Source: Bacillota bacterium
Lineage (GTDB): Bacteria; Bacillota; Dethiobacteria; DTU022; UBA8154
DNA: 46,546 bases
Direction: 5' to 3'
Assembly: GCA_030656575.1 (NCBI GenBank)
Contig: JAUSPO010000072.1
Coordinates: 1-46,546, forward strand
Shown: piece by piece, positions 16,486-41,667 of the stretch
Layout: each line of letters begins with the position of its first letter
Position numbering within the stretch: the stretch's first letter is position 1
Notes under the pieces: generated by a model
What the model was told of the DNA's origin: nothing
The model's database searches: none
What the model saw: the letters and a program-made list of their open reading frames with translations, nothing else
Position numbers and translations under genes: made by a program

Positions 16486-16512
16486 ATTGAGTCAAATCTC
16501 CTCACTTTAGTA

Positions 16513-17415: not shown

Positions 17416-17423
17416 TACCACTC

Positions 17424-18368: not shown

Positions 18369-18402
18369 TTAGGTGTCTCTCCTTTTTGCCTTTCAACCTT
18401 TT

Positions 18403-19524: not shown

Positions 19525-19603
19525 TCGGTTAACCTCTTTCTACTTTTATGGTTCATACAGCGTAGACTCAACTGTATAAAATAGTTTACGGGAAGTTATA
19601 AGG

Positions 19604-19643
19604 GTGTTTTAGAGGTCGGCCTTTTGGACAACCTCTAAAACAC
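19604..19643 (-). promoter_or_regulatory. Intercistronic hairpin after the SBP1 gene
   Basis: GTGTTTTAGAGGT (19604-19616) and ACCTCTAAAACAC (19631-19643) form a perfect 13-base-pair stem with a 14-base loop, just past the SBP1 stop. No T run follows, so it more likely protects the binding-protein mRNA or partly attenuates than fully terminates. Confidence 0.65.
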
Positions 19644-19654
19644 ACGCAGACTTT

Positions 19655-21363: not shown

Positions 21364-21408
21364 TGATAGGCGGTTCAAATAAGCAATTAAATCCCCAACC
21401 GTCTATCA
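21364..21408 (-). promoter_or_regulatory. Hairpin overlapping the stop of the set 2 DppC gene
   Basis: TGATAGGCGGTT (21364-21375) and AACCGTCTATCA (21397-21408) form a 12-position stem with one mismatch (an A-C pair in the minus-strand RNA). The stem includes the stop codon of the set 2 DppC-type gene and precedes the SBP1 gene. No T tract follows. Confidence 0.45.
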
Positions 21409-22302: not shown

Positions 22303-22315
22303 CCGTATCCCTCCT

Positions 22316-23260: not shown

Positions 23261-23310
23261 TCAGTTTACTCTCCTTTTTCGTCCTTCACTTTCTTCCAGC
23301 AAAAGTTAAT

Positions 23311-23349
23311 AATTCAAGGGGATAGAGACAATACCTACCCCCTTGAATT
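23311..23349 (-). promoter_or_regulatory. Intercistronic hairpin after the SBP2 gene
   Basis: AATTCAAGGGG (23311-23321) and CCCCTTGAATT (23339-23349) form a perfect 11-base-pair stem with a 17-base loop, starting five bases past the SBP2 stop. Only a short T run follows on the minus strand. This is likely an attenuator or mRNA 3' protector that keeps binding protein in excess over permease. Confidence 0.65.
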
Positions 23350-23353
23350 CGAA

Positions 23354-25110: not shown

Positions 25111-26226
25111 TTAACTCCCAGCTCTGACCGATATTTCATCTCCCCTCCATTCACACACACCATTTAAACCTGCTTCCCGTGTTATTTTATTCATGTAGTC
25201 AAAAACTTCCTTTCCCTCTGAATCCTTTTTAAAGACCTCCGGATGACCCTGTTTGTTGATTTTACAGGGATAATAGCTCACTTCGGTAATCTCTTTATCC
25301 TCTATGGTACACTTGGCAATGATTGTGTACTTTGCCTCGGGATGAAAAGGATACGTAGGATACTCGGGATCAGGCTCAAACCCAAATATTTCTCTCCTTC
25401 TCTTTGCCCAGGACTGTGAATCCTGATCATCCTGAGGGGCCAGACTCGGCACATAGGCAACCATATTGCATAATCCGTGAAAGATCGCTTTTCCTTTGTA
25501 AAACTCGATTCCTCTTAATATATGGGCATGATGACCTGCAATAAAATCCGCACCCGCATCAATAGCAGCATAGGATACCTGCTTCTCGTAAGCAGCCAAT
25601 TTTGCCGGTGTATGCCCAATCCCCTTATGAAGTGAAACCATGAGGACATCGCAGAGGGGACGAAGCTTTTGAATATCATCAATCATAGCGTTAAGAGTAT
25701 CCGGTTCGGCCCAGGTATAAATCGCTGGAGGGCCCCCTGGTGTAGCATAATCAAGTTCATAGTGAGTAATGATATGCACATAGGCGCATCCCGGCCTATT
25801 CGAAGCAGCCCATGTTTCTTTCGGCCCGACACAATTGTAACTCAAAAAACCAAACCGGGTTCCATTGCGCTCAATGATGACAGGGCTCCTGGCTTCATCT
25901 ATATTCATTCCACCCCCCACAAAAGCAATATTGTGCTTTTTTAGCCACTTGGCAGTGTCCTCTATCCCCTCGATCCCTGCATCCCAAATATGGTTTCCGG
26001 CCAGGGTAACTACATCAAAGCCGACAGATATTAAAGCATTAAGAACTTCCGGGTCACGACCCAGTGCAACAGCATCCGGGTTTCTTGTGGTATAGGGAAC
26101 CTCTAACTGACCTACCACCACATCCCCTTTTTTTAATACCGGCGCAGCATAAGTGAAGTAAGACCCTGCATCGGGACCGAGAATTATATCCCCTACAGCT
26201 AACATGCTCATCGATTTCGAACTCAT
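25111..26226 (-). CDS. CapA-like metallophosphatase, copy 3
   Basis: This CapA-family phosphoesterase of about 371 residues is nearly collinear with copy 1: SMLAVGDIILGPDAG, VVGQLEVPYTTRNPDAVALG, TLAGNHIWDAG, VSLHKGIGH, GHHAHILRGIEFY and the ending KITREAGLNG. It has no signal peptide. The frame opens at 26256 inside the CoA-transferase gene, but AAGGGGG sits before the ATG at 26226, so that start is preferred and the genes do not overlap. Its position links the CoA-transferase/dehydratase genes upstream to the SBP2 set downstream. Confidence 0.85.
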   Translation of the reverse strand: MSSKSMSMLAVGDIILGPDAGSYFTYAAPVLKKGDVVVGQLEVPYTTRNPDAVALGRDPEVLNALISVGFDVVTLAGNHIWDAGIEGIEDTAKWLKKHNIAFVGGGMNIDEARSPVIIERNGTRFGFLSYNCVGPKETWAASNRPGCAYVHIITHYELDYATPGGPPAIYTWAEPDTLNAMIDDIQKLRPLCDVLMVSLHKGIGHTPAKLAAYEKQVSYAAIDAGADFIAGHHAHILRGIEFYKGKAIFHGLCNMVAYVPSLAPQDDQDSQSWAKRRREIFGFEPDPEYPTYPFHPEAKYTIIAKCTIEDKEITEVSYYPCKINKQGHPEVFKKDSEGKEVFDYMNKITREAGLNGVCEWRGDEISVRAGS

Positions 26227-26242
26227 TAATTTTCCCCCTTCT

Positions 26243-27460
26243 TTAGACAACTCCATCCCGCTTCATCCGTTCCAGTTCGTCTGCTGTAATCCCCAGCACT
26301 CCCTCATATATCTCCTCGTTATGCTCACCAAGAAGCGGTGCAGGTTGAACGGGAACCGAAGAAGCAGACATTTGCAACGGAAATCCGGGCATAACGATTG
26401 GACCAAGCTGGGGATGCTCAACTTCCACCATCATCCCCCGTTTTCTTAGATATGGGTCTTCGGAAAGATCGGCATTGGTTAAAACAGCACCTGCAGGCAC
26501 ACCTGCGCTGCCAAGTTCTTCCATGGCCTCATACTTTGTCTTTTTAAGGGTCCAGGCACTGATTATTGCATCCACCTCACTGTTGTGCTGATAGCGCGTT
26601 TCGGGAGTTGCGAAACGGGGATCGTCAAGAATGTCTTCACGACCAATAACCTCAAGTAACTTTTCCCACTGCCTGCTGCCGGGCCAGCGTGATGTGTAGA
26701 GGTAAACATAGTCGTTGGGTCCCCCGGGGCTGCATGGAAATACGCCACAGGGCGCAACAGGAGCCAGGGGCATCCCGTTGCCCACTCTTCCGGAAGGATT
26801 GCCAGTCTTTAGATAGCGCGCCCAGGAGGGACGGCAAAAATTTATGACTACGTCCTGCATGACTACCTCAATCCTTTGACCTAAACCGGTAACTGTACGC
26901 TGATAGAGCGCAGCAAGAATCCCCATTGCACAATGGATACCAGTCCCGCTGTCCGCCAGGTTCGGACCAGCCTGCATGGGCAATCCGTCAGGTTCTCCCG
27001 TGATGGCTGCACATCCACCGGTAGCCTGGCCGATCGGGTCAAAAGCTGGAAAATCTGCATACGGACCATCCGTACCAAAGCCCTTGATTTGTGCATAAAT
27101 AATACGCGGGTTAATGTTTCGTAATGTCTCGTAATCAAAGCCAAGCTTTTCAATCGCTCCCGGTTTAAAGTTTTCCACGAACACGTCAGCATGCTTAACA
27201 AGCTGCAGTACAAGTTCTTTTCCTTTCGGATGCTTGATATCAAGAGTTACGGATTTTTTATTGGCATTTAGAAGAATAAAATCGTAGGAATTAGCCTCTG
27301 CTGTATCTCCATAACCTGCACGACCCTGCTCACCGATCCCCGGTCTCTCGATCTTAATTACATCGGCACCGAGCCAGGCCAGTGTTTCTGTGCAGGTCGT
27401 TCCGGATTCAAATTGTGTAAAGTCAAGAACCATTATTCCTTCCAATGCTGCAGCAGTCAT
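26243..27460 (-). CDS. Class III CoA-transferase (CaiB/BaiF family)
   Basis: This 405-residue family III CoA-transferase moves CoA between acyl-CoA and a free acid by an enzyme-bound aspartyl-CoA. It begins ALEGIMVLDFTQFESGTTC and contains GADVIKIERPGIGE, FVENFKPGAIEKLGFDYETL and the catalytic-Asp motif NLADSGTGIHCAMGILAAL (the Asp is near residue 170). The length is normal. It overlaps the dehydratase-like gene by four bases (ATGA), so the two are translationally coupled and probably work in sequence: CoA activation of an acid, then reaction of the CoA ester. Confidence 0.93.
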   Translation of the reverse strand: MTAAALEGIMVLDFTQFESGTTCTETLAWLGADVIKIERPGIGEQGRAGYGDTAEANSYDFILLNANKKSVTLDIKHPKGKELVLQLVKHADVFVENFKPGAIEKLGFDYETLRNINPRIIYAQIKGFGTDGPYADFPAFDPIGQATGGCAAITGEPDGLPMQAGPNLADSGTGIHCAMGILAALYQRTVTGLGQRIEVVMQDVVINFCRPSWARYLKTGNPSGRVGNGMPLAPVAPCGVFPCSPGGPNDYVYLYTSRWPGSRQWEKLLEVIGREDILDDPRFATPETRYQHNSEVDAIISAWTLKKTKYEAMEELGSAGVPAGAVLTNADLSEDPYLRKRGMMVEVEHPQLGPIVMPGFPLQMSASSVPVQPAPLLGEHNEEIYEGVLGITADELERMKRDGVV

Positions 27461-30051
27461 CTTGCATCCACCCCCAGTCTGTTTTCTAAAAATGTTTCAA
27501 TTTCCGCAGTCATGCGTGCATCATTCCATACACGTGCATCAACTGTATCCGCACGCAGCTCCAGCACAGGAATACCAGCATCTTCAAAAGCCTTTTTAAT
27601 AAAATATGACCCCTGCACTGCCTGGGTACAGCTTTCTGCCACAAGGTGTACCATCCCGTTAATCCCATTCTTCTTTGCTTCCTTTAAATACCAGTCACTG
27701 TTCCAGGGAGGCATATGCAGCATATCTTCCATTCCCACAAAACGACTCGCCAAGGCCCTGAGGGGCTCCCCTCCGTAACGGGCATAGGCATCTGCAGCAA
27801 GCCCGAGGTAGATAGACCAAACAAATGTCGCACCGTAGCGCTGTTCAAAATGCTGGTAGAAACCCAGGTTAAACCAGAGACCGGTACCAAGCCACATAAG
27901 CCGGACACGCTCCGTCTGACAGGGCGCGGCTTTCCTGTCAACCAGATCCTTTACTTCTTCGTAAAACATACGTGCCGCTTTCACTCCCCATTCTGTTCCA
28001 CGGTGCCACTGGGGAATCATCACGCTAGGCACCTGATCCGTTATGCTGACCGGTGCTGGCACAGTTTCTGCGATAAGATCCCGGGTTAGCCTGTTGTACT
28101 CTTCCTGCTCATTGACTAATTCCATAACCCTTTTGAATTTCGTCTCGCTAAAGGTCGACCCTGTAGTCGTCTCCAGAAAGCGAATCAGCCCTTGAAGTTC
28201 TTCTACCATAAGATCCAGACGGTGGGGTTCGAATAGATCCTCCCACTGTCTTGGAGCCTTCTCCCACCAACGTTCGGGAACAAACTGGGGGATTGTATTT
28301 TCAAGGGGGTAATAAGGAATACCGAATTCGCGGGACCAGAGTTCAAAAATTTTTGCCTGTGCATCGCATGTCAGGCGTGTTACTGCCAGCGTTGGCTTGG
28401 GTAATCCGCCCCACGGAGCCTTCTCCGTCTCGGGGTCTATAGCAGAGGCAAATGACAGTGAACAGTAGCGACAAAGGTTTTTGCGGTATCCACGCTCGTT
28501 CATAAGGCCAAAATAATGAGGTGACAATTGTTTAGCCGAACAGACCGCCGCCCACCACTGGTTGACAACATAGGGAAGATCCATGGCGCGAAAGATTTCC
28601 TGAGGAACATCGGCGTTGACAATGGCAAAAGGCTCACCATTTCGCACCCTCTCACTTGTGCGCATAAACCACTCCCGCTGAAACGCATTGGCCTCTACTG
28701 CTGATCGCAGCCGTTTTACACTGGCAACGCCACGGGACGGGGAGCTTCGCATCCCTGAAGAAGCAGTTGGCTGCTGATCAACTAAAGCTTTTTCTTTTTT
28801 TTCATCAGCTTGTTCAGCCTGGGGAAAAGGTTTTCCGCTGTTAATTGCGTCGACAAATGTTTCAATTTCATGACGGAGCTTATGCACATCTTTCATTCCA
28901 TAAGGCTGATGCTCAAGGAGCAGGACCGGCACCCCCATCTTTTCAAGAGCGCGGCGCTGTTCAGGAAAGTCCCAGGAGGGCGCGTCATCTAATTCGAGGA
29001 TAAAGAAAATTACTCCCCCCGCACCGGAAGTACGAACCTGTTCAACCAGTGCCGTAACACGTTCCGAAACAGTAGACTGGTTAATAGCAGGCTGGCGCAG
29101 GTGATAACGGTCGATCAGTGCATCGTGCCAGTCTGCCTTAGTATCTATTTCACCTTCAAAGTGTCGGTTGCCCCAATCGTGATCTTCCCCGACTATTACT
29201 GCATTGCAGGACTCCACCAACTCATAAAAATTAGGATTATCCTGAGCACTTCCGGTGATAAAAAGAGGAACTCCGGGAAGTGGAGTGCGTTTTTTTGCTT
29301 CCTGCAGGTAATCTTCAAGAAGTGCACTATGTTCTTCACGAGGCAGAAACATTGATGCACCGATAATCTGCAAAGCTTCCACACCGCTAACAAGCGTCCT
29401 TTTCGAAGAACGCAGCACGGCCAGTTCCTGGAGCAGCCTGCGGTTCTCGTTGCAAATTATGATAGCTTTGACAATCTCTTCAGCAGTAATAGGCTTACCG
29501 CACCATTGTTCAACAATATTTTTCAGCTCAAGCAGCCTTTCCCGATTGTAAAGGGCACTTGTACGGTAGCGGGTATGCAAAAAGTCAAAAAAATAAAGCT
29601 CTGGAACTGGCAGCCAAGATTCAACCCTGCGCAGCTCTCTTAAATAATAGAAAACGCGAACCAGTGCATCAGAAGAGTTATTGATAATGATGTGATCCAG
29701 AAATGAATACGAACCGTCAACTATCCTCCTGAACTGTGACCGTACCAGTGGATCGAATGCCCGCTCTATAAAGCGGTCAGCAGGTTCTTCGTTTCCGCCT
29801 GGTTCTCCACATACGCGAACAGGCAGGTATCCGGCGGCAATCAGTATCTCCTCGGGCACGTCATTGCCAAGGCAGCCGACCACTTTTCCTCCCCGGGATT
29901 TCCATTCCAGCGCAGCACGGTTACGCTCATAGTAAGCGCGAGCCAGTTTTTCGTCGCCGTTCTTTTCTCCCAAAACAGCTATTTCCTCCCTTTCGATTTT
30001 CTTCCATAAAAGCTTTTTTAGCCAAAAAATAATTGTTTTTTTCTGCACCAC
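27457..30051 (-). CDS. Fused two-domain 2-hydroxyacyl-CoA dehydratase / benzoyl-CoA reductase-like protein
   Basis: This 864-residue protein contains two copies of the HgdB/BcrC (D-component) fold, usually separate subunits of about 400 residues. The C-terminal half keeps the expected cysteines: NLCRYCSLSFASA, RLTCDAQAKIFEL and VAESCTQAVQGSYFIKKAF, plus the ending GIPVLELRADTVD. The N-terminal half (VPEEILIAAGYLPVRVCG, GVPVLLLEHQP) lacks them at the matching places: FDPLVRS where CP is usual, NNSSDALV where CD is usual, and LELDDAPSW where a Cys is usual. So only one half should hold the [4Fe-4S] cluster. No ASKHA-type activator gene is in the window. The start is uncertain: GTG at 30051 overlapping the TRAP stop, or TTG at 29973 behind GGGAGG. 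Confidence 0.85.
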   Translation of the reverse strand: MVQKKTIIFWLKKLLWKKIEREEIAVLGEKNGDEKLARAYYERNRAALEWKSRGGKVVGCLGNDVPEEILIAAGYLPVRVCGEPGGNEEPADRFIERAFDPLVRSQFRRIVDGSYSFLDHIIINNSSDALVRVFYYLRELRRVESWLPVPELYFFDFLHTRYRTSALYNRERLLELKNIVEQWCGKPITAEEIVKAIIICNENRRLLQELAVLRSSKRTLVSGVEALQIIGASMFLPREEHSALLEDYLQEAKKRTPLPGVPLFITGSAQDNPNFYELVESCNAVIVGEDHDWGNRHFEGEIDTKADWHDALIDRYHLRQPAINQSTVSERVTALVEQVRTSGAGGVIFFILELDDAPSWDFPEQRRALEKMGVPVLLLEHQPYGMKDVHKLRHEIETFVDAINSGKPFPQAEQADEKKEKALVDQQPTASSGMRSSPSRGVASVKRLRSAVEANAFQREWFMRTSERVRNGEPFAIVNADVPQEIFRAMDLPYVVNQWWAAVCSAKQLSPHYFGLMNERGYRKNLCRYCSLSFASAIDPETEKAPWGGLPKPTLAVTRLTCDAQAKIFELWSREFGIPYYPLENTIPQFVPERWWEKAPRQWEDLFEPHRLDLMVEELQGLIRFLETTTGSTFSETKFKRVMELVNEQEEYNRLTRDLIAETVPAPVSITDQVPSVMIPQWHRGTEWGVKAARMFYEEVKDLVDRKAAPCQTERVRLMWLGTGLWFNLGFYQHFEQRYGATFVWSIYLGLAADAYARYGGEPLRALASRFVGMEDMLHMPPWNSDWYLKEAKKNGINGMVHLVAESCTQAVQGSYFIKKAFEDAGIPVLELRADTVDARVWNDARMTAEIETFLENRLGVDAR

Positions 30052-31961
30052 TAGATTTCCGGAGAAAATTCTGTTGTCCGGGATAATTTTTTCTTGGAAA
30101 GATAGAAATAAAGCAAAACCACACCAACAATTACTGCTCCGAGTATAGAGCTAAATAAGCCTGGGAAGAGCAATAGCCCCGCTGCGGCGATCAGGACAAT
30201 TTTTTCAATTATGTTAAGCCCCCTGAATAAGTAACCTTCCGAAGCGATGCCAAGCGCCAGTAAAGCAAGAACAGCAAAAAAAACTGCATTCATCGTTGAA
30301 GCAAAACTGGTATCGACAACCAGTAGTGCAGGTCGATACATAAAATAAAAAGGCAGGATAAACGCCGGCAGACCGAGACGTACTGTTGTCAGCGCCGCAG
30401 GCCAGAATTTACATTTTGCAATACCGCAGGCCACCATGGGATTGATAGCAACTGGAGGCGTAATGGCTGATAAGCAGGAGATAATGAACACAAACATGTG
30501 CGCACTAATGATTGATGCTCCGGCCTCAACCAATGCCGGTGCACCCAGGACTGCCACGAGAATGTAGGCGCTGACACTGGGCATACCCATGCCAAAAATA
30601 ATGCAGGCGATGGCAGTAAAAATCAGCAATAAGAGAAAGCTGCCGCCGGAAAGATCTATTAACATATTGGAAAATTTCTGCGCCAAACCTGTGGTAACCA
30701 GCATCTCGATTGCCACACCAACCAATACAACAAAGAGAAAAAGCGGTGCGCCGGTTTTTGCGGCACCTGCCAATCCTTCGATAATATTGTTAACAAAGTT
30801 TTTAACCTTTTCCAATTTGTTTTCTTCGGTCATAATTCTGATTAACGAAAACCCGGCAATTGATAATATCCCATAAACCACGGACATGCTCACCGGGTAC
30901 CTGATAAACAGAAGGTAAATCAGTACGCCAACACCAATAAGAAGGTGAAAATAGTCCTTTAAAATCTTCAAAAATGTATCATCTGAATCGGCAGCATCCA
31001 GGGGAACGACCTGGTCTTTCCTTGCCCGCAGCTCTACAGCTAAACTGATTGAAAAGTAAAATAACAGGGCTGGCACTAAAGCAGCAATAGCAATGGTAGA
31101 ATACGGAATGCCAAGAAACCCTACCATCACGAAAGCAACAGATCCCATTACCGGTGGCATAAACTGCCCTCCGGTGGAGGCCACACCCTCTACGGCTGCA
31201 GCGTATTCCGCTTTGTAGCCAGCAGATTTCATCATGGGGATGGTAAATGATCCTGTTGTGGCCACATTTGCTGCAGTACTGCCTGATATGGAACCAAATA
31301 AAAGACTGCAGACAACAGCAGCCTGAGCTGGACCTGAGCGAAATCTGCCTGCCAAAATATGACCTACCCTTAAAAACATTTTTCTTCCACCCATTACATC
31401 CAACATATTGGCAAAAATGAATAAGGGAATGATTAGCGTAGCGCCGATTCCCGCCAGTCTGCCGAAAATACCTCTAAAAAACATCGTCGAATAACCGATA
31501 ATGCGTACAAATGAAATTCCACCGTGGTAAAAGGGGTCGGGAAGAAGGTATCCAAAATGTCCATAAAGAAGCATAATCAACACAAAGATAGGGATCAATA
31601 AACCCCAAAACCTGCGGGAAGCCTCCCAAACCATCAACAAAATGATCGTCCCCACAATCGTGGCGGGCAGAGTCATAATCCCCATCAACCTGGCTATTTG
31701 TTGGTAATTAACCTGCATATAGGTAGTCGATGCTAATGAGAGGATAATGAGTATTATGATGCATACTTTGGAGATCACAGAATGTTTTTTACTCTGAAGG
31801 TCGACCAGAAAAAAAAGTACCAGGGAGAACATAACTGCATATATTTTTATCTGATCCTGCGTTATAGGCATATAGATAACGACATATAGAAGAAATACCG
31901 ACATGGCTACCGCTATAACAGTAATTAATCTTTCGAGACTGAAAAAACGACTGAAGCGCAT
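30051..31961 (-). CDS. TRAP transporter fused permease, TAXI type
   Basis: This permease of about 636 residues fuses the small (DctQ-like) and large (DctM-like) TRAP subunits, as is usual in TAXI systems. The core is recognisable from GRFRSGPAQAAVVCSLLFGS, ISGSTAANVATTGSFTIP, EGVASTGGQFMPPVMGSVAF and GMGMPSVSAYILVAVLGAPA. Many helices are present, with a hydrophobic C-terminus. It imports an organic acid by ion gradient together with the TAXI binding protein. The frame opens with TTG at 31979, but GAGAGG fits the ATG at 31961. It touches the dehydratase-like gene downstream. Confidence 0.93.
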   Translation of the reverse strand: MRFSRFFSLERLITVIAVAMSVFLLYVVIYMPITQDQIKIYAVMFSLVLFFLVDLQSKKHSVISKVCIIILIILSLASTTYMQVNYQQIARLMGIMTLPATIVGTIILLMVWEASRRFWGLLIPIFVLIMLLYGHFGYLLPDPFYHGGISFVRIIGYSTMFFRGIFGRLAGIGATLIIPLFIFANMLDVMGGRKMFLRVGHILAGRFRSGPAQAAVVCSLLFGSISGSTAANVATTGSFTIPMMKSAGYKAEYAAAVEGVASTGGQFMPPVMGSVAFVMVGFLGIPYSTIAIAALVPALLFYFSISLAVELRARKDQVVPLDAADSDDTFLKILKDYFHLLIGVGVLIYLLFIRYPVSMSVVYGILSIAGFSLIRIMTEENKLEKVKNFVNNIIEGLAGAAKTGAPLFLFVVLVGVAIEMLVTTGLAQKFSNMLIDLSGGSFLLLLIFTAIACIIFGMGMPSVSAYILVAVLGAPALVEAGASIISAHMFVFIISCLSAITPPVAINPMVACGIAKCKFWPAALTTVRLGLPAFILPFYFMYRPALLVVDTSFASTMNAVFFAVLALLALGIASEGYLFRGLNIIEKIVLIAAAGLLLFPGLFSSILGAVIVGVVLLYFYLSKKKLSRTTEFSPEI

Positions 31962-32002
31962 ATTCATCCCTCTCTTCAAAAAGCTTCAGGGAATGTCCCC
32001 GA

Positions 32003-32122: not shown

Positions 32123-33142
32123 CTACTTACCCGCTGTCAACCTGTCTTCCCAAATTCCCGTTTCCTTATAGTACCTGACCGCACCTGGATGCACGGGAAA
32201 CTTGGCTACCAAACCCTTGGTAACATTTTCAGGTGCTACCATTTGTAAATGGGGGGTTATAGCCTTCAGTTCTTCAACGTTCTCAACCAGCGTTTTTGTA
32301 ATGGAATAGGCCAGTTCTTCCTCCAAATCAGGTCTGACAAGTAAGATCATGGGATTCATATATACTTCCATCGGCTCGTTCATAAACGGGGAAACATCCG
32401 GCGAGATAATTCCTGGTGTAGCTGCAGTAGCATCCATCATCATTTTGTTAATCTTGGGATCCCAGGGAAGGTATCTGATTTCCATCGCTGCTTCAACTTC
32501 CATATTCAGGGGATATGGTTGCCCATTGCGGAAAAGAAGCAGTGCCGCGTCAGCCCTGCCGCTGATAAAAGCATCAGCTGTTTCAGGGATGGCAAGGTTT
32601 ACCGGGACAATATCAATATCGGCAAAACCAAAATACCTAGTCGTGTCAGTTTCCAACCCGCTGCCGGGAGGTCCGACAATAACTTTTTTCCCTTTCAGGT
32701 CATAGATGGTTTTAATATCAGAATCCGCACGTACTGCAACGATCTGCGTTAAGGCACCGTAGGAAAGCAACTGCATCGGCTCATATTTCTTGTCTTTAAA
32801 AGGTCCTTCTGACATGTAAGCGTTCAGAATATCGGCATTGTTTGAGTGCCCTGCATCAATATCATTGTTGAAGAGCAGAAAAATATTCTCGGAACCACCA
32901 TCTGTGGAAACAGAAGAAAATCTGATATCTGTAAAATGTTTGTTCAACACGCTGCTCATGGCTTCTAATACGAGATAACCATAAGAACCGTCAACCGATG
33001 ACCCAAAGACAAAGTTTGTTCTGGTTGGTTTTGGGCTCGTTCCCGGGCTCGTTCCTTCTTTAGTGGCACAACCGACTACTAATGACAAGACCAGGATAAG
33101 TACGGCAATCAAAACAATCAACTTCTTGTTTCGTTTAAACAT
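32123..33142 (-). CDS. TAXI-family TRAP solute-binding lipoprotein
   Basis: This 339-residue TAXI-type TRAP binding protein has a lipoprotein signal ending VVGC (Cys25). The body begins TNFVFGSSVDGSYGYLVLEAM and has SVSTDGGSENIFLLFNNDID, DLKGKKVIVGPPGSGLE and the family-typical ending FPVHPGAVRYYKETGIW. Family members bind small organic acids such as glutamate or other carboxylates, and the ligand is not predictable. GGGGAG precedes the ATG. It stands directly downstream of a glycyl radical enzyme gene, suggesting it imports that enzyme's substrate. Confidence 0.93.
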   Translation of the reverse strand: MFKRNKKLIVLIAVLILVLSLVVGCATKEGTSPGTSPKPTRTNFVFGSSVDGSYGYLVLEAMSSVLNKHFTDIRFSSVSTDGGSENIFLLFNNDIDAGHSNNADILNAYMSEGPFKDKKYEPMQLLSYGALTQIVAVRADSDIKTIYDLKGKKVIVGPPGSGLETDTTRYFGFADIDIVPVNLAIPETADAFISGRADAALLLFRNGQPYPLNMEVEAAMEIRYLPWDPKINKMMMDATAATPGIISPDVSPFMNEPMEVYMNPMILLVRPDLEEELAYSITKTLVENVEELKAITPHLQMVAPENVTKGLVAKFPVHPGAVRYYKETGIWEDRLTAGK

Positions 33143-33319: not shown

Positions 33320-35728
33320 TTAATTGGCAACGCCCTGCAAGTCATGCTCAGCTCTTCCGATAATCTCTTCCTGGACGGCCCTGCCAAGTTGTATAAAGTA
33401 AGCACTGTAGCCGGCAACCCTGACAACCAGATCCCGGTGCTTTTCCGGATGAGCCTGGGCATCCAGCAATGTAGCTCTATCCACTATATTAAACTGTATA
33501 TGTTTCCCGCTAAATTTAAAGTAGGTCTTGATGAGACTGGACAGCTTAAGCAAGTCCTCCCTGCTCTCCAAGGCCGACGGATGGAACTTCATGTTCAAAA
33601 GCGTAGCCTGATAGGGATCCTGGTCTATTTTGACGGCACTCTTAATAATCGCTGTCGGACCACCGCTATCCATACCACGCATGGGGGACATAGTTCCATC
33701 GGCCAACACTTCGCCGGCATACCTGCCGTCCGGTGTGGCACCTGTCATTTCCCCCCCAGGTCCGTGAGCTGTAATAGAAATAGCCGTCGGCAGATGCTTG
33801 CCGCCAAGAGCCGTAGCAAATGTTGCCGTCGTCTCGGCCCAAAATTTATAGAGATCTCCGGCAATCAGGTCGGCATAATCGTCATCATTACCGTATTTTG
33901 GCGCTTCCAGGCACATTTTTCGTATTTCTTCAAATTCTTCTCCGCTCCAGTTTGCTGACAGGGCTTCCTGCAACTGCTTCATGGTCACTGTTTTTTCTTC
34001 AAAAACGAGTTTTTTAATGGCAGCTAAAGAGTCAGCCACGTTAATCATGCCAACAGGGTTCATCACCGCTCCATTTTCGAAAGGCATGGTGCGATCCAGT
34101 AAAGCCTTTCCTTCTTTGATGGCATCGACCATAAAGGACGAACGAACCGGGTCGGGCAGCAATTCCTGGTTGGCAATGAGCTCAATATTGTCACGTTCGG
34201 CGTTTAATTCCATGAAATAGGCAAGTTGACTTTTAAATGCCTCTAGAAGATCATCAAAAGTTTGGAAATCTTCCAGTGCGCCGGTTTTAAGGCCGATCTG
34301 CCTGCCGCTTCGCGGCTCGACTCCATTATGGAAAGTAATTTCTAAAACAAGCGGCACAATAAACATTGCAATTGAAGCAGTGCGGGATTTCCCCGGGAGG
34401 TTGGCATCAAGACAGCCCGTTACGATATAGTCCCGCGCGTCCCGCAAGTCAACACCGTTGTTCACAAAAAAATTGATATATGATTTATCTCCGATAAAGG
34501 CTGGCATACCAACCCCTGCTTTTACTACTTCCAGAGCTTTAAGCATGAAGTCGTCAGAGGTCTTTTCATGTACTCTTACAGTGATGGTATGATGAGGAGT
34601 CGGGCAGTCTTTGGCCGCTTCCAGGATAAGGTAGGAGAGCTCGTTCGTAGCGTCTTCTCCTTCAGTCGTTACTCCTCCGATGGTCCAATTATGCCACTTG
34701 GCCATCCCTGAATTCTTCTGCCTATTAAGTTTGCCGGATACCCGGTTCAACTGCATATCTTTGATTCTTAAACATTCCAACAATTCCAAAACATCTTCGT
34801 CGGTAGCCCTGCCTTCTGCGATGTCCTTCTTGTAAAAGGGATACATGTACTGGTCAAAGCGTCCTGCAGCCGCAGTCGGAGAAGGAGTTATCATCAAAAA
34901 AATAAACCAGAAAGACTGCATCGCCTCATAAAAAGTCCTGGCCGGTTTTGCCGGTACCCTTCGGCACGTTTCTGCAATTCTTTCAAGTTCTTGTTTCCTA
35001 ACCGCATTAGTTTCTCTCTGCTCCATCTCCGCTGCCAGATCGGCAAACCTGTCGGCAAAGCGAATAATAGCTTTATGGGTGATTAATACAGATTTTAAAA
35101 AGTATGTTTTTTTAACGGAATCGGCATCAATATACTTTACCCTTTGCAGCTCTTCTTCTGCTTCTTCAATAATCTTGTATAACCCGTCATTAAGTATCTT
35201 TGCAAAGTCAATGCCCATCAAATATAAGCCCGGTCCCAGGCCCATCCCTCCCTGGGCATAACCTCCTCCGCTTCCCTCACCTTTACTCTTCCAGGGGGGA
35301 AGAACCATCCCTGATTGGACAAAAGGCCATAATCGCTCATTATCAAAGAGGATCTCTCCCATTCTGCTAACAAGGCTCTTGCCTTTATAGTAATGATTAA
35401 GGGTCTTTAACTCCTCTTCATCCTCAGGGGAGATGGTATAGCCTTCTTCTTTGAGGGCGTCAATTTCTTCCTGGGACCATGTTCCATAATCGTGATCGAT
35501 CTCTAAACCCATTGGTTTGCTTGCCACGTTGCCCACAATCAATTCATCATCTTCAATAAATACTGTTATATTATCCAAAACATTGGCCAGGGTCTTGGCT
35601 CTTCTCAGAATTTCGGGGTCACCTTCCGTCTTTTCAAGGGACTTTGTGATTAAACGAAACTTTTCAATACATAAAGGATATTTATGCACATAAAGCCTTT
35701 GCTTTAATTTTTTTACTCGTTCATTCAT
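33320..35728 (-). CDS. Glycyl radical enzyme, unassigned type (GRE1)
   Basis: This 802-residue glycyl radical enzyme of the eliminase/decarboxylase size class carries the radical-bearing Gly in RVAGYSAYF (about Gly773) and a single thiyl Cys in TGCLDANLPG (about Cys439). It is not pyruvate formate-lyase, which has two adjacent cysteines. In many eliminases (diol and choline lyases, 4-hydroxyphenylacetate decarboxylase) the motif is C-x-E; here it is C-L-D. Other family stretches include CPTPHHTITVRVH, VLEITFHNGVEPRSGRQIG and HGPGGEMTGATPDGRYAGE. GGAGG stands before the ATG at 35728, preferred to the longer frame opening at 35758. A 27-base block with a TTGTATTACAA palindrome precedes it. Confidence 0.92.
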   Translation of the reverse strand: MNERVKKLKQRLYVHKYPLCIEKFRLITKSLEKTEGDPEILRRAKTLANVLDNITVFIEDDELIVGNVASKPMGLEIDHDYGTWSQEEIDALKEEGYTISPEDEEELKTLNHYYKGKSLVSRMGEILFDNERLWPFVQSGMVLPPWKSKGEGSGGGYAQGGMGLGPGLYLMGIDFAKILNDGLYKIIEEAEEELQRVKYIDADSVKKTYFLKSVLITHKAIIRFADRFADLAAEMEQRETNAVRKQELERIAETCRRVPAKPARTFYEAMQSFWFIFLMITPSPTAAAGRFDQYMYPFYKKDIAEGRATDEDVLELLECLRIKDMQLNRVSGKLNRQKNSGMAKWHNWTIGGVTTEGEDATNELSYLILEAAKDCPTPHHTITVRVHEKTSDDFMLKALEVVKAGVGMPAFIGDKSYINFFVNNGVDLRDARDYIVTGCLDANLPGKSRTASIAMFIVPLVLEITFHNGVEPRSGRQIGLKTGALEDFQTFDDLLEAFKSQLAYFMELNAERDNIELIANQELLPDPVRSSFMVDAIKEGKALLDRTMPFENGAVMNPVGMINVADSLAAIKKLVFEEKTVTMKQLQEALSANWSGEEFEEIRKMCLEAPKYGNDDDYADLIAGDLYKFWAETTATFATALGGKHLPTAISITAHGPGGEMTGATPDGRYAGEVLADGTMSPMRGMDSGGPTAIIKSAVKIDQDPYQATLLNMKFHPSALESREDLLKLSSLIKTYFKFSGKHIQFNIVDRATLLDAQAHPEKHRDLVVRVAGYSAYFIQLGRAVQEEIIGRAEHDLQGVAN

Positions 35729-35781
35729 CACGGAAAACCTCCAATTTATACAATCCATGAATAAAAATAAGCATTACCCTT

Positions 35782-35808
35782 CTTTGTCATACTAAATTGT
35801 ATTACAAT
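35782..35808 (-). promoter_or_regulatory. Conserved operator/promoter block upstream of GRE1
   Basis: The palindrome ATTGTATTACAAT (35796-35808) fits the FCD-GntR consensus TNGTNNNACNA. The surrounding 27 bases match 41754-41780 at 24 of 27 positions. Read on the minus strand, the palindrome is followed by TAGTAT, a -10-like box, so the bound protein would sit over the -35 region. Confidence 0.6.
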
Positions 35809-35863
35809 GATTATATTATATTTTTATTTGTTTGTCTACCATTTTAGAAAAATTTCCTCTTTT

Positions 35864-38260
35864 TCAAACTGTCGACCGGTGCTCGGCGCGCTCGATAATC
35901 TCATCCTGTACCGCTTTGTTCAGTATGGTAAAGTAGGTACTGTACCCAGCCACACGCACAATAAGATCACGATATCGCTCCGGGTTTTTCTGGGCTTTGA
36001 GCAGGGTTTCCTGATCAACCACGTTGAACTGTATATGCTTTCCGCCGTTTTTAAAATAAGTTTTTATGAGACCAGAAAGTTTTCTAAGATCGTCAGTACT
36101 TTGCAAGGCTGTGGGATGAAATTTCATATTGAGCAGGGTCGCCTGATAAGATGACTGGTCAACAGCCACGGCACTGCGAATAACACCTGTAGGACCATTT
36201 AGGTCCATCCCCTGGCTGGGAGACATGGAACCGTCGGGCAAAGAATCCCCTGCATACCTGCCGTCAGGGGTGGCTCCAGTCATAGATCCACCGGGAGCGT
36301 GTGCAGTAATGGAGATAGCCGTGGGTTTTACGGTAGCACCATAGATGGAACGAAATGAATTCGAGGTATCAGCCCAGAAACGGTACAGTTCACAAGCAAT
36401 AGAATCCACGAATGCATCACCATTGCCGAACTTCGGCACTGCCAGGCACATCCTGCGAATATCCTCATAGCCTTCCCAGTTGGCTGCCAGAGCGGCATGC
36501 AAATCCTTTTTGCTCACTTTTCTTTCCTCGAAAACCAGCTTCTTAACCACTGCCATGGAATCGGCTACGTTGATCATCCCCACCATATTCAGAGCTGAAC
36601 CGTTTTCAAAGGGCAGGGCACGGTCCAAGGCATCTTTGCCCACTTTAATGGCGTCCACCATCAGCGCTGAATGCACTACATCAGGATAAAGATCCCTTTG
36701 TGCCTGCAGCAGGATGTTATGCTCTTCATTAGTCAGGCTCATAAAAAAACAGAGCTGTTCCTTAAATGCCTTCATGAAGTCGTCAAAGGTCTCGAAACTG
36801 GCAAATTCACCGGTTTTTGGCCCCAACTGCACGCCGGTCTTCGGCTCCACCCCATTATTCATGGTGATCTCGAAGATACGGGGTACTACAAACATGCCAA
36901 AAGCATTGATACGGGACTTCCCGGGCAAATTAACGTCCAGGCACCCGGCCAGGGCATAGTCCCTAGCCTCTACCATACTCACACCCTGGCTGGTCAAAAA
37001 ATCAAGATAGGAATTATCGGAAATGAAAGCTGGCATGCCAATCCCTGTCCTGACAACTTCCAGCGCTTTAATCATTAATTCTTCAGGTGTCTTGTCGTGA
37101 ACCCTGACGGTAATGGTGTGGTGGGGAGTCTGACAATCCAGGGCTGCTTCCAGGATGAGATAGGAAAGTTCATTAGTGGCGTCTGCCCCGTCGGGAGTCA
37201 CTCCGCCAATGACAAAATTATGCCACCTGGCTATGCCTGCCCACTTATCCCTTTGCTCTTTGCCTCCATTGATAAAATTGAAATGCATAATCTTGATACG
37301 CAGGCACTCCAACAGCTCCAGCACTTCATGATCATTGATGCGGCCCATTTCCCTGTCTTTTTTATAAAAGGGATACATAAATTGGTCAAAGCGGCCACCC
37401 GGAGTCGTACCGCTGGCTACCATCATCCAGTAAAACCAGAAGGACTGCATTGCTTCCCTAAAAGTCCCGGCCGGTTCGCCAGGCACCCGGTAACACGTTT
37501 CGGCAATACGCTGAAGTTCATTTTTCCGCACAGAATCCTTTTCTTCCCGGGCCATCCCGGAAGCCAGGTCGCCGAATCTTTTGCCGATACGGACAATAGC
37601 TTCAAAAGCAATAACGGTGGCCTTCAGAAAATCAGCCTTTTTGATCGCTTCAGTATCAGTATACCTGAGGTTAGTTAGCTCTGCCCGGGCATCCCCGATC
37701 ACTTTATTCAGTCCTTCGTTGATCACCTTGGCATAATCAGGCAGAATGAGAGACAACCCAATGCCCAGTCCCCAACCGACTCCGGCTGTGCCCGGCCCCC
37801 GTCCCTGCTCTTTACGGTTCCAGGGTGGGCAAAGGATACCGGATTTAATAAAAGGCCATAGATGATCATCATCATAATAAAGTCCCTGCCTCTCATCCAA
37901 GGTCCTGCCCTGACCCAGCCAATAAGAGTCCATAGCCCTGAGCCTGGTTTCATCTTCTGGAGAAATATATAGAGAACCTTTTTTTAAGTCATCCAAATCT
38001 TCTTCAGGCCAGGTCGGACCGAGAGATCCCGCTTCCATGCCCATTGGCAGACTAGCTACATTGCCGACAAGAAGCTCGCCGTCTTCTATAAAAATGGACT
38101 TATGATCCAGGTAGTGAGCTGTGCTCATCGCCCTTCTTAGGACTGTCGGGAGTCCCTCTGTCTGTTTATAAGAATCTAAAATCAGGGAAGCCTTCTCCAG
38201 ACAAATGGGATATTTATCGACCTTGAGCCTATCTTTCAATTTTGTTAGCCGTTCGTTCAA
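35864..38260 (-). CDS. Glycyl radical enzyme, unassigned type (GRE2)
   Basis: This 798-residue paralogue of GRE1 shares its start (MNERLTKLKDRLKVDKYPIC versus MNERVKKLKQRLYVHKYPLC). The Cys motif LAGCLDVNLPG (about Cys440) and the Gly motif RVAGYSTYF (about Gly772) are intact. It also carries C-L-D in place of the common C-x-E. Other landmarks are CQTPHHTITVRVHDKTPEEL, FEITMNNGVEPKTGVQLG and HAPGGSMTGATPDGRYAGD. The start is TTG with AAGG about 11 bases ahead. It begins 31 bases after the activase and is probably transcribed from the MerR-type promoter. Whether GRE1 and GRE2 have different substrates or form a complex is unknown. Confidence 0.92.
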   Translation of the reverse strand: MNERLTKLKDRLKVDKYPICLEKASLILDSYKQTEGLPTVLRRAMSTAHYLDHKSIFIEDGELLVGNVASLPMGMEAGSLGPTWPEEDLDDLKKGSLYISPEDETRLRAMDSYWLGQGRTLDERQGLYYDDDHLWPFIKSGILCPPWNRKEQGRGPGTAGVGWGLGIGLSLILPDYAKVINEGLNKVIGDARAELTNLRYTDTEAIKKADFLKATVIAFEAIVRIGKRFGDLASGMAREEKDSVRKNELQRIAETCYRVPGEPAGTFREAMQSFWFYWMMVASGTTPGGRFDQFMYPFYKKDREMGRINDHEVLELLECLRIKIMHFNFINGGKEQRDKWAGIARWHNFVIGGVTPDGADATNELSYLILEAALDCQTPHHTITVRVHDKTPEELMIKALEVVRTGIGMPAFISDNSYLDFLTSQGVSMVEARDYALAGCLDVNLPGKSRINAFGMFVVPRIFEITMNNGVEPKTGVQLGPKTGEFASFETFDDFMKAFKEQLCFFMSLTNEEHNILLQAQRDLYPDVVHSALMVDAIKVGKDALDRALPFENGSALNMVGMINVADSMAVVKKLVFEERKVSKKDLHAALAANWEGYEDIRRMCLAVPKFGNGDAFVDSIACELYRFWADTSNSFRSIYGATVKPTAISITAHAPGGSMTGATPDGRYAGDSLPDGSMSPSQGMDLNGPTGVIRSAVAVDQSSYQATLLNMKFHPTALQSTDDLRKLSGLIKTYFKNGGKHIQFNVVDQETLLKAQKNPERYRDLIVRVAGYSTYFTILNKAVQDEIIERAEHRSTV

Positions 38261-38291: not shown

Positions 38292-39218
38292 TTATCCTCC
38301 TATTTGCACCGTTAATCCATGGGAAACAAAGATTTCTTTTAATTCTTTCAGATGCTGCTCGCTGGGGGGGATGCTGTTAAAGAGCAGACCCTGAACACCC
38401 ATTCTCTCGTTTTTGGACTCACCAAGACGATGAAAGGGTAGAAGGTTTACCGGCACAGAAGCCCCCAGTTTGCAGGCCACAAATTCAGCCGTGGCCTCTA
38501 TGTTCTCAAGCGAATCGTTATATCCCGGGATTACCGGTATTCGGATAATTACCGGCTTTTTTTGCTGGTGATAAATCCTGATAACATTATCTTTGATTAA
38601 TTCATTAGATACACCAGTGCATTTTTGATGCTCGCTGGGATCCATGTGCTTCAAATCGAATAATAGGAGATCGACATATGGCAAAACCAGCTGCAAAATA
38701 TCCCACCTGGCGTACCCAGATGTTTCTAAGGCGGTATGTATACCAGCTTTCTTGCACAAACTCAGCACACTCGCGGCAAACTCCGACTGAAATAGTGGTT
38801 CTCCACCGCTTAGAGTAGCACCACCGCCCGATTCTTCGTAGAAAATTTTATCCTGCTCAATTTTATTAAAAACCTCACCGGCCGATACCCGAGTACCCAT
38901 CATGTTTCTGGCCTCATGCAAACATACAGTTGTACAAACTCCGCAACTTTGGCACAAGTTGCGGTTTGTCACAGCTTTCCCATCCTGAATATGAATGGCT
39001 CCTATGGGGCAGGCAGGTATGCATTTCCCGCATCCTGCACACTTTTCTGCAGTAAAAAAGATCTGGTGACACATGGAATGTGACTCCGGATTCTGGCACC
39101 ATAAGCACCTCAGAGGACACCCTTTCATAAAAACCGTAGTTCGAATACCAGGCCCATCGTGGATGCAATAGTGCTGCACATTAAAAATCATGCCCTCCAC
39201 AGCGGATAAATTAGTCAT
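38292..39218 (-). CDS. Glycyl radical enzyme activase (radical SAM)
   Basis: This activase of about 308 residues uses S-adenosylmethionine and an iron-sulfur cluster to place the radical on a GRE glycine. The N-terminal IHDGPGIRTTVFMKG leads into the CX3CX2C motif CPLRCLWC. Next come two ferredoxin-type clusters (CAGCGKCIPACP and CQSCGVCTTVC), as in activases of the non-PFL type, then GGGATLSGGEPLFQ, LLLFDLKHMD and IPVIPGYND. The frame opens at 39284, but AGGTGG fits the ATG at 39218. It is the only activase in the window and probably serves both GREs. A MerR-type promoter lies directly upstream. Confidence 0.93.
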   Translation of the reverse strand: MTNLSAVEGMIFNVQHYCIHDGPGIRTTVFMKGCPLRCLWCQNPESHSMCHQIFFTAEKCAGCGKCIPACPIGAIHIQDGKAVTNRNLCQSCGVCTTVCLHEARNMMGTRVSAGEVFNKIEQDKIFYEESGGGATLSGGEPLFQSEFAASVLSLCKKAGIHTALETSGYARWDILQLVLPYVDLLLFDLKHMDPSEHQKCTGVSNELIKDNVIRIYHQQKKPVIIRIPVIPGYNDSLENIEATAEFVACKLGASVPVNLLPFHRLGESKNERMGVQGLLFNSIPPSEQHLKELKEIFVSHGLTVQIGG

Positions 39219-39269
39219 ATGTGTACCACCACCTAGTTGGTAAAAGCAATCTTTAATTACTCTATCACC

Positions 39270-39300
39270 AGTATAAACCCTCAAGCAACTTGAGAGTCAA
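39270..39300 (-). promoter_or_regulatory. MerR-type promoter and operator of the activase-GRE2 genes
   Basis: On the minus strand there is TTGACT (39300-39295) and TATACT (39275-39270) with a 19-base spacer, two longer than optimal. The spacer holds the palindrome CTCAAG-TTG-CTTGAG (39294-39280). Overlong spacers with a central dyad are the signature of MerR-family promoters, which the regulator activates by untwisting the DNA. A MerR gene ends 88 bases upstream (its last base is 39388). Confidence 0.85.
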
Positions 39301-39387: not shown

Positions 39388-40200
39388 TTATATTATTTTT
39401 TCCACGGGGATTTGTATTTCCGCCAGGTACATTTTCCGGTTTTCGGTGAAGGTTCGATCAATGATAATAAACCTCACCGGATCACCACAGGCAGCATAGT
39501 TATTTTCTTTGAGATAGTTTAATAACTTTTCATAATAGGGTGGAGACTCATCGTGCTTTCCCCTGTAATAGATACAGACGTAGTCTCCGGCAGGCAGTGT
39601 ACTGTTCATCTTTGTATCTTCCTGGCTGTCTTCAGGCATCACAAAGATTGAATTATAATCCTTAAAATAATGCCTGCTCAAATCCATGCATGAAATCGTG
39701 AGCCCCACTTTTTCTAAATAAGCATTGGCCATCTTCTCCAGTTTTCGAATTGCCAACTCTAATTCCGACCTGGATGCAATCCTCTCATGCAAACGCAAGA
39801 CCTTTCTTTCCTGGAGATGCTCTATCCTGATAACGTCCAAGTCCTTACACCTGCGGGCCTCTTCGATTTCATTGATACGATGTGTGAATTTATTAATCAC
39901 GGTCTGCAGTCTGTTATATTCCTGAACAGCCTTCTCATGCTGCTTTTTTAAAAGCAGCAGGTAATTTTCCGGAGTCATCTTTTCGCAGATATTTTTTGTT
40001 TCTTTCAGGGATACCCCCATCAGCCTTAAATATCTGATTTTACTTAACTCTTCAAATTGGTCAATGGAATAATAACGATATCCACTGTGGGGATCCGTTT
40101 GGATCGGCTTAAACAAGTCAATTGCATCGTAATAACGCAGGGTCGCTACCGAAATATTAAATATTTTGGAAATTTCGCCAATGGAAAAAAGTTTTTTCAT
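39388..40200 (-). CDS. MerR-family regulator with effector-binding domain
   Basis: This 270-residue regulator has a classical MerR winged helix at its start (LFSIGEISKIFNISVATLRYYDAIDLFKP, then HSGYRYYSIDQFEELSKIRYLRLMGVSLKE). A coiled-coil dimerisation helix follows around residues 80-115. The C-terminal domain is of the BmrR/GyrI-like ligand-binding type (VCIYYRGKHDESPPYYEKLL, MYLAEIQIPVEKI). It lies directly upstream of the promoter with the MerR signature, so it very likely controls the activase and GRE2 in response to a small molecule. GGCGGGG precedes the ATG. Confidence 0.92.
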   Translation of the reverse strand: MKKLFSIGEISKIFNISVATLRYYDAIDLFKPIQTDPHSGYRYYSIDQFEELSKIRYLRLMGVSLKETKNICEKMTPENYLLLLKKQHEKAVQEYNRLQTVINKFTHRINEIEEARRCKDLDVIRIEHLQERKVLRLHERIASRSELELAIRKLEKMANAYLEKVGLTISCMDLSRHYFKDYNSIFVMPEDSQEDTKMNSTLPAGDYVCIYYRGKHDESPPYYEKLLNYLKENNYAACGDPVRFIIIDRTFTENRKMYLAEIQIPVEKII

Positions 40201-40293: not shown

Positions 40294-41667
40294 TTATAAG
40301 AGTGCAGTAATCTGGGCAATGTTTTCGACTTCATCCAAATTCATGATTAATCCTACTAAATCCTTTAACTTTTCCATGGTAATATTTTTCATTGAGTGCC
40401 CGGCACAATCCATAAACTTTGTTATCAAGGCCTCCTGGCTCATGGGATTTCCGGGATGGCCATAGGGGAAACTTACTCTTTTTGAAAGGACAGAGTTTTT
40501 AGTGTGGACTTCCAACCGACTTTGCATAGTTGATTTAGAAGTAAAAGAGTCGTCCACCTCATATGTGACTTTTCTGGATACTCCCAACACTTCCCGGTTT
40601 ACCAACGCCTGGGGTGAAAAATGCTCCAGTGCAACTCTCTTGTAAACAATAGCAGTCGCGACAACGAAAGGGATACTGAATTTGGCATCGATTGCCGTTA
40701 TTGGGTTTTGCTTTGTTTCCAATGGCTCACAAAGCATCCTGTTTAAAGGGCTCACAACAGCCCTGATTTCCTTTACGTCTCCAGGCTTTAAATCATGTTC
40801 TTCTATAATCTGCAAAACTGCATCAACGTAAGAATGGGTACCCCTGCAGCTGGGCCAGGGTTTGAAACTAACATTGGCACTTTCAAAGACCTTTCCCAGG
40901 TTATCTGTCAACATATCAGGAAAATAATTTCCTCTTGCATACAGATTAAAAAATCCTGCCTTACCTTCAAACGGCTGTTTAAAACCAACAATACCTTCCC
41001 TGGCCAGCAATGCCGATAATACTCCGGCCTTTGCCGAAAAAGCATCCCTTATTGACCTTACTACCGATTGAGGGTTGTGGATTAGTTCCCCGCTGCATGT
41101 TGCCTGGCATAGAGTTAGGGAGAAAGCGTCCAAAATCTGTTCTTCAGAGAGTTTTAAAAGTTTGCTAACCGCCGTTGTCGCTCCAAAAGCACCTAATATA
41201 GGAGGCATATACCAACCATACCCCAGCAAGTCTTCCTTTAAAGACAGACCTAATCTGCAAACCAGATCACTTCCCAAAATGATCGCGGCAAGGAAGTCCC
41301 TGCCGCTTACATCTCCCAGAGATTCCGCAACTGCAAGGGCAGCAGGTATAGCAGCAGCATTGGGATGCACAAATGCCCTATCGTGTGCATCCTCAAAATC
41401 CAGTGCATGGGCCATTGATCCATTGGCAAAAGCGGCCATAGCCGCAGGCACCTTTTGATCAAAACCCAGAATCGTACTTTCGTTTTTTCCTCCACTGGTC
41501 ACCGCCAGATGAACAAATTCTTTGCATCCCTCTCCAAGAGTACCGGCGGCAAGCATTACCGCAAGTGCATCCAGGAAGCAATTTTTCGCAATTTTCACCA
41601 CACCTGCAGGTATATGATCATAATCAGTATTAGCAATATGTTTTGCCAATATTTGCGACTCGTTCAT
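40294..41667 (-). CDS. MmgE/PrpD family protein
   Basis: This 457-residue protein is of the MmgE/PrpD family, which includes 2-methylcitrate dehydratase, cis-aconitate decarboxylase and iminodisuccinate epimerase. Landmarks are IAKNCFLDALAVMLAAGTLGE, MAAFANGSMAHALDFEDAHD (the family's active-site region with Asp/His), HPNAAAIPAALAVAESLG, SFKPWPSCRGTHSYVDAVLQ and DAKFSIPFVVATAI. The exact reaction is not predictable. GAGGAGG precedes the ATG. A 27-base operator/promoter block shared with GRE1 lies 87 bases upstream, tying it to the same regulon. Confidence 0.9.
   Translation of the reverse strand: MNESQILAKHIANTDYDHIPAGVVKIAKNCFLDALAVMLAAGTLGEGCKEFVHLAVTSGGKNESTILGFDQKVPAAMAAFANGSMAHALDFEDAHDRAFVHPNAAAIPAALAVAESLGDVSGRDFLAAIILGSDLVCRLGLSLKEDLLGYGWYMPPILGAFGATTAVSKLLKLSEEQILDAFSLTLCQATCSGELIHNPQSVVRSIRDAFSAKAGVLSALLAREGIVGFKQPFEGKAGFFNLYARGNYFPDMLTDNLGKVFESANVSFKPWPSCRGTHSYVDAVLQIIEEHDLKPGDVKEIRAVVSPLNRMLCEPLETKQNPITAIDAKFSIPFVVATAIVYKRVALEHFSPQALVNREVLGVSRKVTYEVDDSFTSKSTMQSRLEVHTKNSVLSKRVSFPYGHPGNPMSQEALITKFMDCAGHSMKNITMEKLKDLVGLIMNLDEVENIAQITALL

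Follow-up and report, generated by a model that had tools for sequence, protein, structure and literature searches.

Glycyl radical enzymes (GREs) catalyse some of the hardest reactions of anaerobic life, and newly characterised GRE subfamilies have repeatedly been a way into new pathways. The stretch of DNA analysed here (46,546 nucleotides, contig JAUSPO010000072.1 of a Bacillota bacterium; hereafter the window) encodes two adjacent GREs with Asp where the eliminases of this superfamily have Glu, which raises the question of what the pair does. Both genes lie on the reverse strand: GRE-A (33320..35758, 812 aa) and GRE-B (35864..38260, 798 aa, TTG start), assigned to types A and B of a GC[LIV]D clade by ORF, domain, alignment and tree. 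The PFL-like domain matched at full length in both (E 5.5e-176 for GRE-A, 1.7e-159 for GRE-B), as did Gly_radical PF01228 (E 2.3e-33 and 3.4e-31, respectively). An ATG at 35728, with TTGGAGG ahead of it, aligns with the start of GRE-B and is, on sequence grounds, likely the true start of GRE-A.

We then located the catalytic residues by alignment and codon reading. Cys449 of GRE-A and Cys440 of GRE-B align with the thiyl Cys433 of glycerol dehydratase. The Cys449-Leu450-Asp451 codons occupy 34406..34414 on the reverse strand, with C449 as TGT (34412-34414) and D451 as GAT (34406-34408), and those of Cys440-Leu441-Asp442 occupy 36935..36943 on the same strand, with C440 as TGC (36941-36943) and D442 as GAC (36935-36937). 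Since the Cys and Asp codons differ between the two genes, the identity of these residues is maintained at the protein level. Each enzyme has a single Cys followed by Leu, rather than the Cys-Cys pair of pyruvate formate-lyase, and the radical Gly lies in an RVAGYS loop (reverse-strand codons 33410..33412 for Gly783 of GRE-A and 35945..35947 for Gly772 of GRE-B). One radical-SAM GRE activase with a ferredoxin-like insert (38292..39284, reverse strand; TIGR02494, 352 bits against a cut-off of 174) is located transcriptionally upstream of the pair. Both proteins thus carry the marks of the superfamily, namely the RVxGY loop domain, the barrel Cys and a dedicated radical-SAM activase. A preliminary description of this DNA had proposed two intact GREs with a single catalytic Cys and a Gly motif, one activase for the pair and Asp two positions past Cys in both copies, and all of this was borne out. 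On another contig of the window's genome (C128, 23667-26088) there is one more GRE, a third, with a classical motif (GCVEPDATGKEYGWHDAA) and a broken reading frame.

The CxE motif is reported as conserved in GRE eliminases (PMC7077986, PMC8473560), and the decarboxylases HPAD and IAD retain Glu as well (PMC6181972). We read CxE in the solved glycerol/propanediol dehydratases, 9rco, PflD, 8id0, CutC, IslA/IseG and HpsG, and found CxD in none of the solved structures read at this position, which do not include the X-succinate synthases, 2f3o, 7vua, 8iof and 8id1. The arylacetate decarboxylase 7e7l has GCVL, i.e., CxL, which rules out the statement that all characterised GREs are CxE. Scanning a genome collection and searching whole genomes, followed by a motif screen, yielded 43 canonical members of the clade, from Bacillota, Proteobacteria, Spirochaetales, Sedimentisphaerales and rumen clostridia. 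All 43 carry CxD (GCLD in 33, GCVD in eight, GCID in two), with Asp encoded by GAC in 27 and GAT in 16. The earlier view that the Asp is no chance mutation therefore holds. Two other early claims held in part: GC[LIV]D is common to the clade but the NLPG portion of the proposed GCLDxNLPG signature varies, and CxE usage extends to the eliminases, HPAD and IAD but not to 7e7l. CxD is not private to the clade either and is insufficient on its own to define the family: in a deltaproteobacterial MAG, a GRE (L020:2768-5206) has GCVD without [KR]W or the inserted loop described below and falls outside the clade, so CxD arose more than once.

Two homologues with 44-45% identity to GRE-A have Gly in place of the Asp, one on plasmid Mpl of Novosphingobium sp. 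PP1Y (L158:19902-22400) and one in a gammaproteobacterial MAG (L014:9890-12376). Their motifs read GCLG and GSLG, one thus lacking the Cys too, and their radical loop is RIGGCS. A search of the MAG and of the plasmid, the PP1Y chromosome lying outside it, gave no GRE activase, and the two homologues may be non-radical descendants. The plasmid neighbourhood shares a TonB receptor (59%) and a P450 (56%) with that of the intact GRE pair on contig C2 of a proteobacterial genome (G062).

Does the pair belong to a described subfamily? In a tree of 44 sequences, including 13 reference and background GREs, a branch with 100/100 support divides the clade from CutC, HypD, the glycerol/propanediol dehydratases, E. 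coli PflD, YbiW and other GREs. Within the clade, the same tree supports type B at 100/100 and type A at 91/82, with the second copy of G062 and a divergent copy in G021 weakly placed. The window GREs show the full clade signature: GC[LIV]D, [KR]W, an LPPW/Gly-rich insertion and monophyly. Against TIGR01774, a broad GRE subfamily model, they score 625 and 537 bits, under the cut-off of 678, and the best score against the NCBIfam GRE equivalogs (CutC, HypD, HpsG/HpfG, IAD, HPAD) is 578.6 against a cut-off of 1000. Membership in CutC, HypD, HpsG, IAD, HPAD or PFL is ruled out by score or motif. In the open literature, a scope that leaves most subscription journals outside, we found no GRE with a GC[LIV]D motif or CapA neighbours. 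The pair belongs to a new GRE subfamily, so far uncharacterised, whose catalytic motif is altered. What was known already is the superfamily with its general mechanism; the GC[LIV]D subfamily, matched by no curated equivalog, is new. The preliminary description had set the pair apart as a subfamily of its own and called for a phylogeny, and both the scores below every NCBIfam GRE cut-off and the 100/100 branch between clade and references agree with it.

The subfamily is rare in the window's own phylum (2 of 398 sampled genomes at a strict cut-off, including the window's own), yet it occurs in several phyla and is multi-copy in rumen bacteria. Three of the latter (G068, G065 and G066) have 17 to 29 GRE matches per genome, and eight GC[LV]D GREs on the 38-kb contig C66 of G068 (L117, L118) pass the motif screen.

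We next compared the active site with that of glycerol dehydratase (1r8w). In the alignment, Glu435 is replaced by Asp in the clade and Met338-Tyr339 by Lys/Arg-Trp (Lys354-Trp355 in GRE-A, 34694..34699, reverse strand), the His164 position is hydrophobic, the loop that carries His281/Ser282 is shorter and lacks both, and Asp447 has no counterpart; His164, His281/Ser282 and Asp447 are diol-binding residues of glycerol dehydratase by its established structure. The [KR]-Trp pair is invariant across the clade, and an Arg ten residues past the Cys is nearly so. Ahead of the first barrel strand, the clade has an insertion, LPPWKxKxxGSGGGxAQSGxGLGPG, that is absent in all references compared. An AlphaFold2 model built with 18 clade sequences (pLDDT 84.1, pTM 0.87) places this loop (residues 161-180) with lower confidence (block means 55 and 67). 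By these alignments the active site of the clade is remodelled. Trp at the Tyr339 position has otherwise been reported only for IslA, whose substrate is anionic (PMC8473560).

The first alternative to weigh is an ordinary diol- or polyol-dehydratase-like GRE with Asp for Glu, whose acid-catabolism neighbours would be incidental or process its product. The solved folds nearest to the AlphaFold2 model are indeed propanediol and glycerol dehydratases (TM 0.90, 36% identity), CutC and glycerol dehydratase top the profile search, and Asp is able to serve as a base like Glu. Against this stand the clade-wide loss of the His164, His281/Ser282 and Asp447 counterparts, with the new loop and [KR]W in their stead, and the lack of aldehyde/alcohol dehydrogenase or microcompartment genes by the pair in the window. 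We regard a diol dehydratase as unlikely, if still worth keeping in mind. Somewhat less probable still is that the pair are radical decarboxylases, like HPAD, IAD and 7e7l, with a substituted acetate or dicarboxylate as the substrate: the superfamily includes decarboxylases, one of them (7e7l) without CxE, and carboxylate transporters adjoin the pair, but HPAD and IAD retain Glu (PMC6181972), an HPAD-type small subunit was not recognised, and 7e7l groups apart from the clade.

The window's gene order bears on the substrate. A run of 21 co-directional genes stretches from the MmgE/PrpD gene (40294-41667) to a GntR regulator (10794-11459); several neighbours overlap, and no gap between genes exceeds 177 bases. 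The run starts with MmgE/PrpD of a GRE-linked GWY subtype (40294..41667, reverse strand; domain search and homologue comparison) and a MerR-type regulator with a GyrI-like domain (39388..40200, reverse strand), assigned by domain, with homologues next to GREs of the family in G021 and G061. After the activase, GRE-B and GRE-A come, all on the reverse strand, a TAXI-family TRAP solute-binding protein (32123..33142, TIGR02122), a TRAP transporter fused permease (30051..31979, TIGR02123), a fused HGD-D protein of the 2-hydroxyacyl-CoA dehydratase / benzoyl-CoA reductase type (27457..30051) and a class III CoA-transferase (26243..27460), both by profile and domain matches, and a CapA-like (PGA_cap) protein (25111..26256, domain search). 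The rest of the run consists of two Dpp-type ABC sets, more CapA-like genes, an MFS transporter and GntR; the first set (21406..24979, reverse strand, homologue comparison) comprises SBP_bac_5 (23354-24979) and two permeases, and the further set spans 14386-21280. None of the known GRE clusters matched these neighbours, as had been claimed from the letters. The three CapA-like genes (11622-12734, 18403-19524 and 25111-26256) are interleaved with the ABC transporter genes. The window protein (27457-30051, 864 aa) and L110:8416-10894 fuse the two halves of HGD-D, each of which has its own gene in Geosporobacter (47% and 62% identity). The window's genome encodes BadFG-type activators, which could serve the fused protein.

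To place these neighbours, we compared the genes within about 11 kb of the GRE in 18 family genomes with those at 68 control loci, which carry GREs of other subfamilies and stem from the scan that also supplied part of the family. Because the family genomes are not independent (the window, G010 and G021 belong to one family, and G062/G463 and G065/G066 are near pairs), the significance of the following enrichment is overstated: a MatC-type dicarboxylate permease in 7/18 family genomes versus 0/68 control loci, CapA-like in 5/18 versus 0/68, SBP5 (Dpp-type ABC) in 5/18 versus 1/68, MmgE/PrpD in 4/18 versus 0/68, HGD-D and the MerR/GyrI regulator each in 3/18 versus 0/68, and class III CoA-transferase in 3/18 versus 1/68. 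The GRE activase occurs at the same frequency in both sets. The HGD-D/CoA-transferase link has three genomes behind it when traced through close homologues, and two of these are from one family; the transporter types vary from locus to locus. CapA-like genes directly adjoin family GREs in three genomes (G065, G066, G806). In Geosporobacter ferrireducens, the three family GREs (genes at 1977264-2005775) sit with CoA-transferases, HGD-D genes, acyl-CoA dehydrogenase, EtfAB, a FadB-like protein, thiolase and Tct, DASS, CitMHS and MatC transporters. A Sedimentisphaerales genome (L005/L114) has an HGD-D gene near its GRE, and a gene there is judged from its sequence to be a BadF-type activator.

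The MmgE/PrpD and CapA-like genes need care. Characterised MmgE/PrpD substrates have a 1,4-dicarboxylate core in common (PMC12290011). The GRE-linked proteins share GWY and Arg where the IDS epimerase has GWH and Lys, and therefore form a subtype of their own. With two of the six dicarboxylate-binding residues altered (His to Tyr, Lys to Arg), the dicarboxylate argument from this gene is weakened, and it does not serve as proof of a 1,4-dicarboxylate. MslH, a CapA relative, is an epimerase acting adjacent to a carboxylate (PMC10406935); the match to its NCBIfam model has E 1.1e-26, far below the cut-off.

The same neighbours could suggest C-C chemistry akin to the X-succinate synthases, i.e., fumarate addition or its reverse on a substituted succinate. 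The class III CoA-transferase and acyl-CoA breakdown genes nearby recall the fate of alkyl- and arylsuccinates, and there are dicarboxylate permeases and an MmgE/PrpD gene with known relatives acting on substituted succinates. Yet, among those ORFs near the pair that reach 90 aa, no small accessory subunit of the BssB/BssC type was recognised, nor were chaperone genes recognised in the window, and of the solved relatives BSS and MasD belong to the more distant; we hold this reading to be quite improbable.

Why are there two GREs? GRE-A and GRE-B are ancient paralogues that are found together again in other phyla: types A and B are adjacent in the window, G010, G061, G062 and G463, and a MatC-type permease gene separates them in G064. 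That the two form a single heterodimeric enzyme, as separate A and B clades and the side-by-side placement with one activase might suggest, is very unlikely, since the GREs known so far are homodimers, G060, G067, G312 and G819 have A-type genes with no B gene next to them, and both copies retain all catalytic residues.

The enriched dicarboxylate permeases together with the CoA-transferase and HGD-D neighbours lead us to read the pair as radical lyases. We give an even chance to the proposal that their substrate carries carboxylate groups and is probably a dicarboxylate, and that the product of this lyase reaction is broken down by a CoA-dependent route. It is a tentative but serious possibility that the GRE reaction is one so far undescribed, such as C-O, C-N or C-C cleavage of a substituted dicarboxylate, with the paralogues splitting stereoisomers or successive steps. 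We infer the base role of Asp, the carboxylate binding by Lys/Arg, the elimination chemistry and the A/B division of labour. Uptake of the substrate would fall to the TAXI/TRAP or Dpp-type transporters. The activase (38292-39284) would generate the radical on Gly783 or Gly772, from which it would move to Cys449 or Cys440, and the thiyl would abstract a hydrogen from the substrate. The carboxylate would be gripped by the invariant Lys/Arg ahead of the conserved Trp and by the nearly invariant Arg ten residues past the Cys. Asp451 or Asp442 would be the base, in the role of Glu in CxE eliminases; the exchange may keep that role on a differently sized substrate, and a chemistry of its own for the subfamily, as the preliminary description had proposed, is no more than possible. 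The substrate radical would then shed a neighbouring group in a 1,2-elimination (C-O or C-N), as the first committed step in the anaerobic use of the compound, and the product would become a CoA ester via the class III CoA-transferase, on which the fused HGD-D protein would act by dehydration or reduction. GRE-A and GRE-B may handle two stereoisomers or two successive substrates, and the MmgE/PrpD or CapA-like proteins, from families with known epimerases, may interconvert them. Methylsuccinate-like acids, aminopolycarboxylates, cyclitols and quinate were considered as substrates, and the evidence singles out none. Direct substrate testing is feasible, as the subfamily has a defined signature and a conserved neighbourhood, and one of its hosts, Geosporobacter ferrireducens, is in culture and completely sequenced.

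Among known systems, the B12-independent glycerol/1,2-propanediol dehydratases (1r8w, 5i2a/5i2g, 9rco) share with the pair the barrel fold (TM 0.90), the single thiyl Cys, the RVAGYS radical loop and a dedicated radical-SAM activase, but the pair differs in CxD, the LPPW/Gly-rich loop, [KR]W for Met-Tyr and the lack of a diol gene cluster. IslA, the isethionate sulfite-lyase, shares Trp at the aromatic position by the Cys and Gly loops, a feature reported to be unique to it among eliminases (PMC8473560); unlike the pair, IslA is CxE (GCTE/GCIE), it has its Arg189/Gln193 site at the place of the clade's new loop, and the window has no sulfonate genes. HypD is likewise an eliminase GRE for a carboxylate-bearing substrate, and its activase model NF043069 is the best match of the window activase (357.9 bits, under the cut-off of 425). 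However, HypD is CxE with His160, Asp278 and Asp339 essential (PMC7077986), and the window GREs score 528 and 499 against its model, with a cut-off of 1100. Finally, the pseudomonad itaconate/methylsuccinate cluster, which has CoA-transferase, MmgE/PrpD and acyl-CoA dehydrogenase for a branched dicarboxylate (PMC12290011), differs in having no GRE, and the GRE-linked MmgE/PrpD is of a distinct subtype (GWY, Lys to Arg); the acyl-CoA dehydrogenase is shared between that cluster and the GRE cluster of Geosporobacter.
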